Shown piece after piece: positions 43,367 to 48,554 of a DNA stretch of 64,000 bases (positions are counted from its first letter, which is position 1; the number at the start of each line of letters is the position of its first letter). This stretch comes from Methanomassiliicoccaceae archaeon DOK (GTDB taxonomy: Archaea > Thermoplasmatota > Thermoplasmata > Methanomassiliicoccales > Methanomethylophilaceae): NCBI GenBank assembly GCA_009911715.1, contig CP047880.1, forward strand, positions 1,612,001 through 1,676,000. The letters are read 5' to 3'. The position numbers were made by a program, and so were the translations under genes. The notes beneath the pieces are model-generated. The model was not told the origin of the DNA. It saw nothing but the letters and a program-made list of their open reading frames with translations, and made no database searches.

Positions 43367-43430
43367 GGATGTATGCGGTATCGTGCCACCGTTTTAATTG
43401 ATTGGGTTCCCCATAAATACGAACATCCCG

Positions 43431-43832
43431 ATGACCCGCCAGATGTCCTACAGGATCCCTTCGGAGGACGAGGTCGCCAAGGCGATCGAGAACGTCCTGG
43501 TACGCACACCGCACATGCGTTCGCAGAGGGAGCTCTGCGACGCGGTCTCGGCGGAGCTCATGTGCCTGGACACGGACTACCGCGTCGGGCCGGAGAGGAT
43601 CCGCAGGATAGGCATCTCCAGGCAGCTGTTCAAACTTGAGATAAAGTACGCGGACAAGGGGAGACCGGCGGGCAAATGGTGCCCGGTGTGCGGCTCGATC
43701 CTGCTGTCAGTAAGGAACAGGACCCTGGACGGGAAGACGGTGGAGCTCATGCGCAGATGCAAGGTCTGCGGATACTCCGCGAAGGGCAACTGCTCCAAGC
43801 CGGCGAGATACGTCATCGAGAGGAGGGTCTGA
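43431..43832 (+). CDS. zinc-ribbon protein, conserved archaeal type
   Basis: 133 residues from ATG 43431; the longer frame from 43398 crosses the promoter (TATA-like TTTTAATT at about 43392-43399). An N-terminal helical domain with a winged-helix look (RSQRELCDAVSAELMC) is followed by two Cys pairs, WCPVCGS and RRCKVCGYSAKG, forming a zinc ribbon. It is first of a short series of genes on this strand. Function unknown; nucleic-acid binding is likely. Confidence 0.75.
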   Translation: MTRQMSYRIPSEDEVAKAIENVLVRTPHMRSQRELCDAVSAELMCLDTDYRVGPERIRRIGISRQLFKLEIKYADKGRPAGKWCPVCGSILLSVRNRTLDGKTVELMRRCKVCGYSAKGNCSKPARYVIERRV

Positions 43833-44136: not shown

Positions 44137-45042
44137 ATGAAGATTTGGGAGTTTGCGAAAGTCAACGGTTCTTCGATCAAAGTGGACAGCTGGATGTCCG
44201 ACACGATGGGTCTCGTCGACGGGGGCTACGTGTACAGCACCATCTTCAAGCATCCCGCGGAGGGTCCCAAGGACTACGAGATAATCCTGTCCGTCTTCCC
44301 GCAGGAGAACTACCGCACGCTCACCCACATCACGATGTACCTGGATGACGTCCCCGGATCCAGCGCTCAGGCGGCCAACTTCCTGGCGTCCAAGGAGATC
44401 AACATCCTGAACTCCGCGTCCCTGAACGGCATCTCGGACACAGTCATCGTGTGGAAGCTCATGGCCGACATGAACTTCGCCGGAGAGGTCGACATCCTCA
44501 GGGACGAGTTCGAGGCCCTCAAGGCGAAGAACGACCCCAGTGTCTCCAAGATCAAGAGGATCGACTTCAAACCTGCAGAGATCGGAAGGTTATTCAAGGG
44601 CAACATGTCCGGCGGGAAGGAGGAGCTCCGCCGCGGATACCCCTCGAGCATCAAGAACGGATGCTTCGACGTCGCCGACCAGTACGGTGACATCCTCCCG
44701 GACATCGACGGGAAGAACGTCCTCATCACCATGGACGCGGACTCCTGGATCCTGTCCATCACATTCTTCAAGGAGCAGACCCGCCTGGTCAAGGTGGGCA
44801 TGGAGATCCCGGACTGCCCAGGCAGCATCACCCAGGCCCTCACGGTGATCGCAGACTGGAACGTCAACCTGATCTCCGTCTTCAGCAAGGTGAAGATCTG
44901 CTACGAGACCATGTATCTCGAGCTCGTCATGGACATATGCAAGAGCAACAAGTCCTTCCGCGAGATATGCGACACACTCCCCGCGGCGATGGACGAGCTG
45001 AACGGCATCTTCCTCGTCAAGGAGCTCACAGAGCTGAGCTGA
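44137..45042 (+). CDS. ACT-domain protein (two ACT-like modules)
   Basis: 301 residues. Both halves hold ACT-like patterns: HITMYLDDVPGSSAQAANFL with a strand NILNSASL in the first, and VGMEIPDCPGSITQALTVIA with VNLISVFSKVKI in the second. ACT domains bind amino acids or other small ligands. The middle (about 130-200) is basic. It is the first gene of the 44-46.5 kb cluster, 1 bp before the CdhD-like gene. It may sense the product of that pathway. Confidence 0.75.
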   Translation: MKIWEFAKVNGSSIKVDSWMSDTMGLVDGGYVYSTIFKHPAEGPKDYEIILSVFPQENYRTLTHITMYLDDVPGSSAQAANFLASKEINILNSASLNGISDTVIVWKLMADMNFAGEVDILRDEFEALKAKNDPSVSKIKRIDFKPAEIGRLFKGNMSGGKEELRRGYPSSIKNGCFDVADQYGDILPDIDGKNVLITMDADSWILSITFFKEQTRLVKVGMEIPDCPGSITQALTVIADWNVNLISVFSKVKICYETMYLELVMDICKSNKSFREICDTLPAAMDELNGIFLVKELTELS

Positions 45043-45043
45043 C

Positions 45044-45850
45044 ATGAGGCTGCCCAAGACGTCCCGCAGGCCGTGCGCTCCGCTCGGGGAGCTCTACCTC
45101 GGACGCGGCGACTACGTGGCCGGCGGGGCGCAGAGCCTCCCGTTCCTGGACCTGGACGGGGCCAGAAGGAGGAGGCCGCTGGTATTCGGCCAGGTCACGG
45201 ACGACCTCTCCTCGTACCCCTCCCTAGCGGCCGACATGTTCTCCGGCCGCCAGACCGACCCGGAGGAATGGGCGGTGATGTGGAAGGAGATCGGAGCTGA
45301 CGGTGTCTGGATCGACCTGAGAAGCGGGAACCCGGAAATCGTTCGCAGGATATACGAACGCACACGCCTTCCCGTCGCCGTCTCCGCAGACGATGATGTG
45401 CTGGAGGGGGTGTCTCGCATCGACGACTGCTCCATGATACTCATCGGCAGGAACGGGCCTTACGGAGGGCCTCGCGGACGCCACGCGACAGCTGTCGGCG
45501 GTTCCACCGCGGACGAGATATCAGAACGCTGCTCCGCCGCAGGCGACGGACAAGACATTGTTATCGACCTCGGAGGGTTCTCTATGGGCCAGGGACTGTC
45601 CCGCAGCGTGGAACTGGCGGAGGAGGTCCGCCGCAGAGCCCTGAACGATGATACGACCCTCAGACATCCCACCATGTGCAGCACCGTCCGCTGCTGGGAT
45701 GCAGGATTCCCCGATGCTAGGGTCGCATCCATGTGGGAGGCCGAGGCGGCTCTGGCCGCCATGATGGCCGGGACGGACATACTGATCGTGAGAGGCCCCG
45801 GCGCGGCGGATATGGCCCGCGTCTACGGGGAGGAGCTGGCGGACCTGTGA
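45044..45850 (+). CDS. CdhD-like TIM barrel (CODH/ACS delta-subunit fold), stand-alone
   Basis: 268 residues. It resembles the TIM barrel of CdhD, the corrinoid delta subunit of CO dehydrogenase/acetyl-CoA synthase: GAQSLPFLDLD near the start, then QVTDDLSSYPSLAADMF, DPEEWAVMWKEIGADGVWI, and a late MMAGTDILIVRGP strand. The Fe-S/corrinoid-partner residues cannot be confirmed, and the protein is shorter than typical CdhD. CODH/ACS is not known from Methanomassiliicoccales, so this is a diverged relative. It lies 1 bp after the ACT gene and 4 bp before the CdhE-like gene. Confidence 0.6.
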   Translation: MRLPKTSRRPCAPLGELYLGRGDYVAGGAQSLPFLDLDGARRRRPLVFGQVTDDLSSYPSLAADMFSGRQTDPEEWAVMWKEIGADGVWIDLRSGNPEIVRRIYERTRLPVAVSADDDVLEGVSRIDDCSMILIGRNGPYGGPRGRHATAVGGSTADEISERCSAAGDGQDIVIDLGGFSMGQGLSRSVELAEEVRRRALNDDTTLRHPTMCSTVRCWDAGFPDARVASMWEAEAALAAMMAGTDILIVRGPGAADMARVYGEELADL

Positions 45851-45854
45851 TACC

Positions 45855-46541
45855 ATGGCCGGGATAGAAGTCGACGGGGTTTGGGTTTCGCCGGAGGAAC
45901 GCGCCTTCGCATTGTCGGTGTCGGACATCCTGTACGGGGATATGCTGACAGACCGCATCTCCACGATCGCGGCCCTGGCCGCCGAACATCCCCGCCTGAG
46001 GTTCGTCTGCGTCAGGAACGACTCGATGGATCCGGCGCTGTTCTCCGCCGCGACCGAAGCTGCTGCGGGCACCGGACTCGGCCTGATCCTCGAATCGGCA
46101 GACCCCGTGTGCCTGCGCGAGGCGGCGTCAACGGTCCCCGGCCACAAGCCGCTCCTGTGCATCACGGACTCCGACCGCCTGGGGGAGACCGCTGTGCTGT
46201 CCGCCGTGACGTCGTGTCCGATGTCCGTGCCGGGCATGGACACCGAGTCCCTGATGGACAACGTGGAGACCTCTGAGGACTGCGGAGCCGCCGGGATCGT
46301 CCTGTGCCCCGGTTGCCCGAACATGAAGGGATGCCTGGAGATCAACACGGACCTGCAGAGGCTCGAGACCGAGCACTCCTTCCCACAGGCGTGCCATCCC
46401 GTGATGACCCGCACCTGGTCAGGGGAGTACGCCCTGTCTGTTGCCTCGGTGTCGGTGATGCGTCACGGAGCGCTTGTCGTACTGGACGACCTCGATGCCG
46501 ACGGCTGCGACGTGCTCCAGTCCCTTATGGATAATTTTTGA
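45855..46541 (+). CDS. CdhE-like barrel (CODH/ACS gamma-subunit fold), truncated
   Basis: 228 residues. It resembles the barrel part of CdhE (corrinoid Fe-S protein large subunit): FALSVSDILYGDMLTDRISTIAALAAEHP..RFVCVRNDSMDPALF (elements only), LGLILESADPVCLREA, KPLLCITDSDRL. It lacks the N-terminal 4Fe-4S domain and the C-terminal cobamide domain of real CdhE, although CPGCPNMKGC near residue 155 is Cys-rich. A methyl-group or corrinoid role is an inference from fold. Confidence 0.55.
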   Translation: MAGIEVDGVWVSPEERAFALSVSDILYGDMLTDRISTIAALAAEHPRLRFVCVRNDSMDPALFSAATEAAAGTGLGLILESADPVCLREAASTVPGHKPLLCITDSDRLGETAVLSAVTSCPMSVPGMDTESLMDNVETSEDCGAAGIVLCPGCPNMKGCLEINTDLQRLETEHSFPQACHPVMTRTWSGEYALSVASVSVMRHGALVVLDDLDADGCDVLQSLMDNF

Positions 46542-46581
46542 GCGATACAGGTTTTAAGTCATCATAGACCCATCCATCATC

Positions 46582-47166
46582 ATGCGCATCGCGAACTTCA
46601 GGAGAACGGACACCGTCTCCCTCCCCGGCCTGTACCTCTCATCGGTGGGCGTCTCCACCGACGACGGCCCCGGCGTCAACGAGACGGAGGTCGCCAACTC
46701 GATAAACGGGGACAAGGACTCCCTGGACGGGATCCTCTTCCGCGGCGTAGAGACGGACGTGCTGGAGGTGGACGGGATACACAAACTCATCCGTGTTCTG
46801 AGACCGCCTCATGCGAGATGCGTCATCGAGACCAACGGCTCCAGACCGACAGTCCTGGACGACCTCGTGGGCGCAGGTTACGCGGACATCGTGTCGTTCG
46901 TCTTCGACAGGTACCCCAAGAAATGCCAGCTGGACTCCATGAGGATCGCCAGGGACGGGGACTGCAGATTCGCGGTGACCGTCGTCACCGAGCCGCAGCG
47001 CCTGACGGTGGAGGACGTCCTGGACCTCGGCGACCACATAAAGGGCGCCATGCTCCTGCAGATAAAGCGCTCGTCGGAGCCCGGGGCCCTCCAGTACAAG
47101 AAAAGCGAGATATCCTCCCTGGCCAAGTCCATGAAGGGCACGGCCAAGGAGGTCAGGATTGTTTGA
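46582..47166 (+). CDS. radical-SAM-activase-like protein lacking the cluster motif
   Basis: 194 residues, TATA-like GTTTTAAG about 30 bp upstream, probably leaderless. The order of strands follows NrdG/PflA-type activases: an opening beta segment, ILFRGVETDVLEVDGIHKLI where GGEP would be expected, and CVIETNGSRPTVLDDLV as in the TNG motif, then ADIVSFVFDRYP. The CxxxCxxC motif that should lie near residues 20-40 is absent: no Cys occurs before residue 80. It cannot bind the usual 4Fe-4S cluster. Function unknown; it may be a binding or scaffold protein. Confidence 0.6.
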   Translation: MRIANFRRTDTVSLPGLYLSSVGVSTDDGPGVNETEVANSINGDKDSLDGILFRGVETDVLEVDGIHKLIRVLRPPHARCVIETNGSRPTVLDDLVGAGYADIVSFVFDRYPKKCQLDSMRIARDGDCRFAVTVVTEPQRLTVEDVLDLGDHIKGAMLLQIKRSSEPGALQYKKSEISSLAKSMKGTAKEVRIV

Positions 47167-47168
47167 GA

Positions 47169-48554
47169 TCACCTGCAGAACGAGGAGAGCACCGCGCCGT
47201 TGGCGGCTCCGAGGGAGCGGCTGCTGCAGTTGACGTACCTCAGGGGGACGTCGACCTCCTCCTTGAAGCGGGCGATGATCTTCGGATCCTTCGCGAACAT
47301 GCCTGCCGACAGACCGCATTCGGTGTTCTGGATCTCCTCAAACGCGGCGTCCAGGGAATCCACGACCTTGATGTTCAGGATGGGGAGGCCCGAGTCCATG
47401 TAGCTGAGGTCGTTCTCGTCGTCCAGACCGGACACGACGATGGGGGACACGTAGAGGTCGGACACGCCCATGGCGACAGGGGCCTTGGAGATGACGAACG
47501 GAAGGTTCTCCTGATAGAGCGAGACGAAGCGCTTTGCCGCGTCCTTGCTTATGATCGGTCCGGTGAAGGTCACATCGTCCACGGGGTCACCCACGCGCAG
47601 ATCCTTCATGATCTCGGAGACCGCCTCGACGAGACGCTTCTGCTCATCCATGGTGACTATGACCTTGGAGCAGGAGTACAGACGCTGACCGCTGTACGCG
47701 AACGCGGAATCGACGATTGACCTCGCCGCGGCCTTCATGTCGGCCGGCCTGTAGACTATGGCGGGGTTCATGCCCTTGATGTCGTTGATGAACCTCAGCT
47801 CGTCGTCCACCTGGAGGAACATGAGGTCCTCGAGCCTGTCCCCGGATCCGCTCGCCGCGATGCCCACGACGCGCATGTCGTTCGCCAGGGCCTCCGTGGA
47901 CTCGTCCTTCCTGTCGACGACCAGGTTCAGGACGCCGTCAGGCAGACCGTACCTCTCCATGGACTCGTAGAACGAGTAGACCGGCAGAGGGCAGTGCTTG
48001 GACGGGTTCATGACGACGGTGTTTCCCGCGACCATGGCCGCCACAGCGTACGCGACGGGGGATGCCATGGGAGAGTTGTGGGCGGAGATGACCGCCCAGA
48101 CACCCAGCGGCTTGCCCTTGTGGGAAGCCGCGTCCGCCAGAATCCCCTCCACTGCTGCGATGAGCGAGTCGACCTCGGAGACAGCGTCCTCGCGGACCAT
48201 GCCCGAGCTCACGGTGACCATGGCGGCGTAATACAGCCTCCTGGCCTTCAGCAGCGTCAGGTACTTCTCGAAGTACGCCGCGCGCTCCGACACCGGGACC
48301 TCCGACCATGTCTCGAAGGCCTTCTTCGCCGCCTCGACGGCCTCGGCCATGATGCCCTCCTCGGGCTCCTGGAACCTGCCGTACGTGATGGAGTCGTCTA
48401 TCGGGCTGGAGACGATGAAATCCGTTCCGGATGCGACCTTCATCCCACCGTAGTAGCTGGGGAAGTCCCTCTTCTCTCCGCCGAGGACCTGGTCGATCAT
48501 CTTCTCGTACTCCCTGCCCTCATCGGTGGTCTGCAAATCTGGGTAGTCTGACAT
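47169..48554 (-). CDS. aldehyde dehydrogenase-family protein without the catalytic Cys
   Basis: 461 residues, ALDH fold nearest the pyrroline-5-carboxylate dehydrogenase type. NAD-site-like VWAVISAHNSPMASPVAYAVA and NTVVMNPSKHCP are recognisable. At the active site, AYSGQRLYSCSKVIV has Leu292 where the nucleophilic Cys belongs (GQxC); Cys295 is three residues on. The usual ELGGKNP is NDIKGMNP, so Glu is replaced by Asp258. Either a new activity or a pseudoenzyme. It converges with the radical-SAM-like gene, 2 bp between stops. Confidence 0.8.
   Translation of the reverse strand: MSDYPDLQTTDEGREYEKMIDQVLGGEKRDFPSYYGGMKVASGTDFIVSSPIDDSITYGRFQEPEEGIMAEAVEAAKKAFETWSEVPVSERAAYFEKYLTLLKARRLYYAAMVTVSSGMVREDAVSEVDSLIAAVEGILADAASHKGKPLGVWAVISAHNSPMASPVAYAVAAMVAGNTVVMNPSKHCPLPVYSFYESMERYGLPDGVLNLVVDRKDESTEALANDMRVVGIAASGSGDRLEDLMFLQVDDELRFINDIKGMNPAIVYRPADMKAAARSIVDSAFAYSGQRLYSCSKVIVTMDEQKRLVEAVSEIMKDLRVGDPVDDVTFTGPIISKDAAKRFVSLYQENLPFVISKAPVAMGVSDLYVSPIVVSGLDDENDLSYMDSGLPILNIKVVDSLDAAFEEIQNTECGLSAGMFAKDPKIIARFKEEVDVPLRYVNCSSRSLGAANGAVLSSFCR

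Follow-up and report, generated by a model that had tools for sequence, protein, structure and literature searches.

Methanomassiliicoccaceae archaeon DOK carries five adjacent genes whose products resemble parts of known enzymes and regulators. They encode an ACT-domain protein, shortened relatives of CdhD and CdhE (the small and large subunits of the corrinoid iron-sulfur protein, CFeSP), a protein of the radical S-adenosylmethionine (SAM) type and a relative of the aldehyde dehydrogenases (ALDH). The genes lie in a stretch of 64,000 nucleotides (CP047880.1, positions 1,612,001-1,676,000, forward strand), here called the window, and they raise the question of where such a set comes from and why it is kept. 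The first part has a clear answer. Conserved gene order and intermediate forms in related genomes show that the cluster is a reduced descendant of an acetyl-CoA synthase (ACS) locus. For the second part, the reading followed here is that an ACS/methionine locus was dismantled and its remains retained as non-catalytic proteins around an amino-acid-sensing ACT protein, and we give it an even chance of being right.

Origin of the locus

The comparison set comprised 80 related genomes, 31 of them from the genus of the window, and gene order was compared over about 40 loci from inside and outside this genus. Proteins of the locus were searched with Pfam and NCBIfam profiles, and genomes were searched for ACS with PF03598, which detected the positive controls. 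Outside the genus, genes for ACT, ACS, CdhD and CdhE follow each other on one strand, with RACo, a MesB-like protein and a CooC/AcsF-like ATPase on the opposite strand. Other genera of the family have in addition an NrdG2-type radical-SAM gene with the motif CxxxCxxC and a convergent ALDH gene. The order in the window is that of these family relatives minus the middle. The ACS of the relatives is identified at 818 bits, above the cut-off, and CdhD, full-length CdhE and RACo/AcsV were likewise confirmed with NCBIfam and Pfam. The MesB-like protein has a weak NCBIfam match (PRK00957, 1.6e-4) and is so labelled because its gene sits beside CFeSP. ACS is sometimes fused to carbon monoxide dehydrogenase (CODH) in the loci outside the genus, as in G049 with a single frame of 1367 residues. 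Fused frames of about 1360-1380 codons occur in several Methanomassiliicoccales of other families of the order (L058:4484-8587, L064, L066).

An earlier note on this DNA read the genes as a novel grouping of proteins related to the CODH/ACS folds, in a lineage thought to lack CODH/ACS. This premise is wrong for the order, where ACS was found in 38 of the 80 relatives, though it holds for ACS in the genus (0 of 31 genomes), and the cluster is instead what is left of an ACS/CFeSP/MesB-like locus that is complete in sister genera. The MesB-like gene follows the same pattern (44/80 relatives, 0/31 genus genomes), and RACo and the CooC/AcsF-like ATPase were not found at the locus in the genus. Nor did a search of the organism's own genome reveal a remnant CODH or ACS elsewhere; the match to the CODH profile TIGR01702 reaches just 24 bits against a cut-off of 478, within the range of weak matches found family-wide. 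A search of the 80 genomes with the CdhE barrel shows a sharp divide in its length, with 210-260 amino acids in the genus and about 440 in other genera and families.

The reduced form was present in 21/21 genus loci first compared and the genes of the ACS cluster in 20/20 loci outside the genus. The five-gene arrangement of the window was found again at all 20 first-compared loci from other genus genomes, although in two of these the ALDH gene falls beyond the contig or the stretch covered. This recurrence, together with the substitution rates given below, rules out chance or an annotation artefact. The side-by-side occurrence expected in the earlier note is thus borne out within the genus, but it is not uniform. 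CdhD and CdhE are gone in a genus subclade (G001, G017, G025, G026, G029 and G006) and in Methanoplasma, which together with several other genera has just the ACT, radical-SAM and ALDH genes left; the ACT, radical-SAM-like and ALDH-like genes extend across most of the family. The ACT gene is found in 76 of the 80 genomes, and all 80 loci kept from an ACT-alignment scan of the genome collection have titles naming Methanomassiliicoccales or, more vaguely, metagenome-assembled genomes (MAGs) of Thermoplasmata, Euryarchaeota or archaea. Another intermediate is the sister genus g11 (L071, L113-L117), in which ACS, the ATPase and a RACo-like protein are kept and CdhD and CdhE are lost, so that ACS is left without the protein that donates its methyl group. 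The A-cluster motif CxxC...C...C of its ACS is intact and CGC is changed to CSC.

In six genomes (G035, G046, G042, G047, G034 and G032; loci L051, L052, L053, L054, L055 and L062) ACS, CFeSP and the MesB-like protein occur without any CODH above cut-off, and these loci form an archaeal parallel to the acetyl-CoA-to-methionine route of Dehalococcoides. Two others, G033 and G039, have CODH (TIGR01702 above cut-off) in genomes without ACS. In two relatives from the order (L085:6893-13929 and L086:7544-14351) the ACT gene adjoins a gene for biotin-protein ligase, and a pyruvate-carboxylase-type subunit B and an M16 peptidase are encoded between the ACT gene and ACS. No methionine synthase of the MetE/MesA type (PF01717), the MetH type (PF02574) or the MesB type was recognised in the organism's own genome, which predicts methionine auxotrophy or an unknown route.

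The five proteins and the selection on them

The five genes and their defects (Table 1), as described in the earlier note, were confirmed by open frames and by Pfam and NCBIfam matches. The four plus-strand genes are separated by 1, 4 and 40 bases, and the ALDH gene converges on them with the stop codons 2 bases apart. A cdhE start is available in an ATGA overlap with cdhD in about half of the species. This overlap and GGGGAGGAG suggest that translation of the two genes is likely to be coupled.

Table 1. Features of the reduced locus (positions in the window)
Feature	Position	Strand	Remarks
ACT protein, 301 amino acids	44137-45042	+	Internal duplication; each half consists of a beta-rich N-terminal part and an ACT domain with DxPG
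Shortened CdhD (CFeSP small subunit), triosephosphate isomerase (TIM)-barrel protein	45044-45850	+	Motifs DPLMAxLGMGLxYSYSVxERIR and NLDxNLxKQ eroded
GGGGAGGAG	45827-45857	+	Within cdhD 3' end and cdhE start
CdhE (CFeSP large subunit) as a bare TIM barrel	45855-46541	+	Without 4Fe-4S and corrinoid-binding domains
NrdG2-type radical-SAM-like protein	46582-47166	+	CxxxCxxC cluster site deleted
ALDH-like pseudoenzyme of the 1-pyrroline-5-carboxylate (P5C) dehydrogenase type	47169-48554	-	Cys302 to Leu292, Lys192 to Asn183, Glu399 to Asp387

Directly upstream of the ACT gene lies a gene for a protein of 144 amino acids with two CxxC-type pairs (window 43398-43832, plus strand). L055 encodes a similar protein at the corresponding position, as other loci of the family probably do.

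The descent of the two barrels is recorded in their profile matches. CdhD is recognised by PF03599 (5.8e-9) and by the NCBIfam CdhD subfamily (4e-17). Its longer motif is conserved in 20 loci outside the genus and is found in related form in the CFeSP structure 4DJD, whereas it is eroded in the genus. The CdhE match (1.2e-19) is limited to profile positions 92-301 of 450, the central barrel; the N-terminal 4Fe-4S domain is missing since the match begins at position 92, and the corrinoid-binding domain is missing because CdhE stops after the barrel in all aligned genus members. What remains is well formed. Structures were single-chain AlphaFold2 (AF2) models, and fold neighbours were sought with Foldseek. 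The model of CdhE shows a full barrel of eight strands (predicted local distance difference test, pLDDT, 95.9) with the CFeSP large subunits as nearest fold (template modelling score, TM, 0.85 to 4djd_C), followed by KDO8P synthase and dihydropteroate synthase. The active sites of TIM barrels are located at the C-terminal ends of the strands. By our own definition of this catalytic face, it holds 18 of the 29 CdhE residues whose conservation in the genus reaches 90% or more (Fisher test, p 7e-4). Six residues, C52, P152, M157, W188, D214 and C218, are fixed in the genus but different in the sister genera.

The radical-SAM-like and the ALDH-like proteins are, as proposed earlier, genuine pseudoenzymes by sequence. 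The former matches TIGR02495 at 7e-5, with 22 bits against a cut-off of 131, and CxxxCxxC is missing from every genus copy compared and present in other family members with ACS. No genus genome has an NrdG2 match above cut-off, and the presumed client NrdD (PF13597) was found in none of the 31, while a ribonucleotide reductase of PF02867 occurs in most of them, the organism's own included. In G032 and G035, where NrdD is present, the NrdG2 at the locus is the sole one above cut-off and is for this reason likely to be the NrdD activase. The state of the cysteines requires at least five changes on the ACT tree; the cluster was lost by deletion in the genus of the window, by substitution in a clade of UBA78/1R26 type, and L130 and L160 show further losses. 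The cysteines are kept in 14/14 scored loci with ACS and lost in 36 of 50 without it. An association between the loss of ACS and of the cysteines was considered and set aside, the independent pairs on the tree being too few for significance.

The ALDH-like protein matches PF00171 at 1.3e-66 (225 bits) and aligns over almost its full length with P5C dehydrogenase 3QAN (E 3.5e-35). The catalytic cysteine is replaced by Leu, the NAD lysine by Asn and Glu399 by Asp. None of 61 copies has Cys302 or Lys192, and all have Asp in place of Glu399, which makes the protein an old pseudoenzyme shared by the family. A neighbouring cysteine, residue 295 in the window, is fixed in the genus.

The two halves of the ACT protein form a tandem repeat (hhalign internal repeat E 9e-8), and the AF2 model has pLDDT 88. 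Single domains are recognised at E 9e-4, and the Pfam ACT score is 19.5 in the window, under the cut-off of 27, and 37.8 in a relative. A profile search of the PDB gave weak ACT matches only. The nearest folds are amino-acid regulators, namely GcvR-like, aspartokinase and acetohydroxyacid synthase regulatory domains. In 32 ACT sequences compared, the DxPG ligand motif is conserved in each of the two domains. Ligand sensing by these domains, as suggested in the earlier note, is plausible.

Purifying selection acts on all five proteins. The ratios of nonsynonymous to synonymous substitution (Ka/Ks) are simple Nei-Gojobori values. For the window and G023, the relative nearest to it, they are 0.03 for ACT, 0.04 for ALDH, 0.15 for CdhD, 0.15 for CdhE and 0.18 for the radical-SAM-like protein; in the pair L035-L036, with Ks 0.08-0.25, the corresponding values are 0.02, 0.07, 0.12, 0.16 and 0.40. 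Frames are unbroken at 30-40% identity. Recent pseudogenes, the outcome against which the earlier note had set its proposal, are ruled out by the intact frames and these ratios. Identity within the genus, set against that among other genera of the family, is higher for ACT (0.79 vs 0.58) and ALDH (0.66 vs 0.47) and lower for CdhD (0.49 vs 0.63), CdhE (0.39 vs 0.66) and the radical-SAM-like protein (0.36 vs 0.56). Both comparisons indicate that all five are constrained, the three derived proteins more loosely.

Proposed history and possible functions

Judged from gene content, the ancestral set in relatives without CODH would have served a Dehalococcoides-like route: acetyl-CoA is cleaved by ACS, CFeSP takes over the methyl group, and a core methionine synthase transfers it to homocysteine. 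The ACT protein at the head of the locus would have been an amino-acid regulator. The chemistry of the ALDH was lost before the family diversified. In the genus of the window, ACS, MesB, RACo and the ATPase disappeared from the locus. Only the barrel of CdhE was left, the CFeSP motif of CdhD was eroded, and the radical-SAM protein was deprived of its cluster as well as of NrdD, its presumed client. CdhD and CdhE were dropped later in the subclade. After the loss of the route, the ACT protein and its non-catalytic partners may have been retained; a regulatory or scaffold assembly would be the simplest form. A new non-enzymatic role is probable because the genes have been stripped of catalytic parts and are still kept by selection. 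A specific form of this idea, put forward tentatively, is a putative regulatory complex of former enzymes in which ACT would bind an amino acid via DxPG and control the CdhD-CdhE pair, the radical-SAM-like and the ALDH-like protein. A broader version is doubtful, namely a family-wide complex wholly of former enzymes, gated by the duplicated ACT protein, with a re-shaped CdhE pocket and a radical-SAM cluster lost repeatedly and independently.

Several observations weigh against the retention of a non-catalytic assembly around the ACT protein. The whole ACT protein has low Foldseek TM values (0.2-0.4) to its neighbours. In Methanoplasma the radical-SAM cysteines persist although NrdD is absent; loss of NrdD alone therefore does not suffice for the cysteine pattern, which leaves the assignment of the client incomplete. 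Within the genus, sequence change is much faster in CdhD, CdhE and the radical-SAM-like protein than in ACT and ALDH, and CdhD and CdhE are missing in about a quarter of the members, which suggests that both may be on the way out. The rival account that these facts invite is slow terminal decay, with CdhD, CdhE and the radical-SAM-like protein as relics of little function and ACT and the ALDH-like protein alone functional. It draws further on the faster evolution of the three relative to the sister genera, on the high divergence of CdhD and CdhE in G011 and G028 and on radical-SAM-like Ka/Ks values of up to 0.5-0.6 in several more distant pairs. However, CdhD and CdhE have Ka/Ks of 0.12-0.18 in the closest informative pairs and unbroken frames, and the newly fixed residues of CdhE and the concentration of its invariants on the catalytic face are hard to reconcile with relics. 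Decay is therefore considered rather improbable.

The same concentration of invariants might instead mark a new active site (D56, E80, K158, C160, E162, R186, W188, E191, D211, D212 and D214) in a CdhE that catalyses an unknown reaction under feedback control by the ACT protein, and the next-best structural neighbours are indeed enzymes. Several of these residues, however, are also found in sister genera, in whose full-length CdhE they have a role in CFeSP; in addition, cdhE is dispensable in a subclade and gives no hint of a substrate. A new enzyme is thus unlikely. Handling of methyl-corrinoids, raised as a possibility in the earlier note, would require that CdhD and CdhE together can still bind a corrinoid protein, one whose gene lies elsewhere, and transfer methyl groups. 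The barrels do descend from CFeSP, and Methanomassiliicoccales live by corrinoid methyltransferases. The idea is nevertheless contradicted by the locus, in which the corrinoid and 4Fe-4S domains of CdhE, RACo and the CdhD motif that CFeSP small subunits share, from those of bacteria to those of the sister genera, are all gone. MesB is gone from the genome, and Methanoplasma retains the ACT, radical-SAM and ALDH genes without any CdhD or CdhE. With the corrinoid-related parts of the locus gone, this function is very improbable.

Comparison with known systems

Loss of CODH/ACS has been described for several methanogen lineages (PMC8621161), ACS/CODH has been reported in a Methanomassiliicoccales MAG from a lake (PMC6147122), and CdhDE is labelled in a figure legend (PMC7824343). 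No description of this remnant locus was found in a literature search that did not cover key papers on CODH/ACS evolution. A CFeSP cut down to bare, selected barrels beside two more pseudoenzymes, with repeated loss of the radical-SAM cluster, looks new.

The barrels are homologous to those of the CODH/ACS and CFeSP system (CdhD/CdhE, equivalent to AcsD/AcsC; 2H9A, 4DJD, 9FZY) and their gene order is inherited from it, but the window locus is without ACS, CODH, the 4Fe-4S and corrinoid domains and the CdhD motif. Dehalococcoides has an incomplete Wood-Ljungdahl route in which the methyl group of acetyl-CoA is passed to methionine via the core methionine synthase MesB (PMC7005905, PMC7857596). 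Sister genera likewise have ACS, CFeSP and a MesB-like protein, and in several of them CODH is absent altogether, whereas the genus of the window has lost ACS and MesB, and the ACT, radical-SAM and ALDH companions are lineage-specific as far as seen. Gut Methanosarcinales (Methanimicrococcus and Methanolapillus) are described, in the available part of one report, as having lost the CODH core and retained some Cdh subunits (PMC11362671). They resemble the genus of the window as gut-associated methanogens with partial Cdh retention after loss of the core; truncated barrels, an ACT partner and pseudoenzyme neighbours are not mentioned in that part of the report. The NrdG2 activases (TIGR02495) are homologous to the radical-SAM-like protein, and family relatives above the cut-off have CxxxCxxC, but in the window protein these cysteines are deleted, the score falls far short and NrdD is absent from the genome. 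The whole fold of P5C dehydrogenase (L-glutamate gamma-semialdehyde, 3QAN) aligns with the ALDH-like protein, in which all three key residues are replaced.

The locus thus offers a set of pseudoenzymes in gut methanogens that can be tested, and a loss of methionine synthesis is predicted for the genus. Taken together, the related genomes provide a natural series of steps from full CODH-ACS, through ACS without CODH, ACS without CFeSP and CFeSP barrels without ACS, to the ACT, radical-SAM-like and ALDH-like proteins. The series records the stepwise disassembly of an ancient metal enzyme complex, the pieces of which outlive their chemistry under selection.

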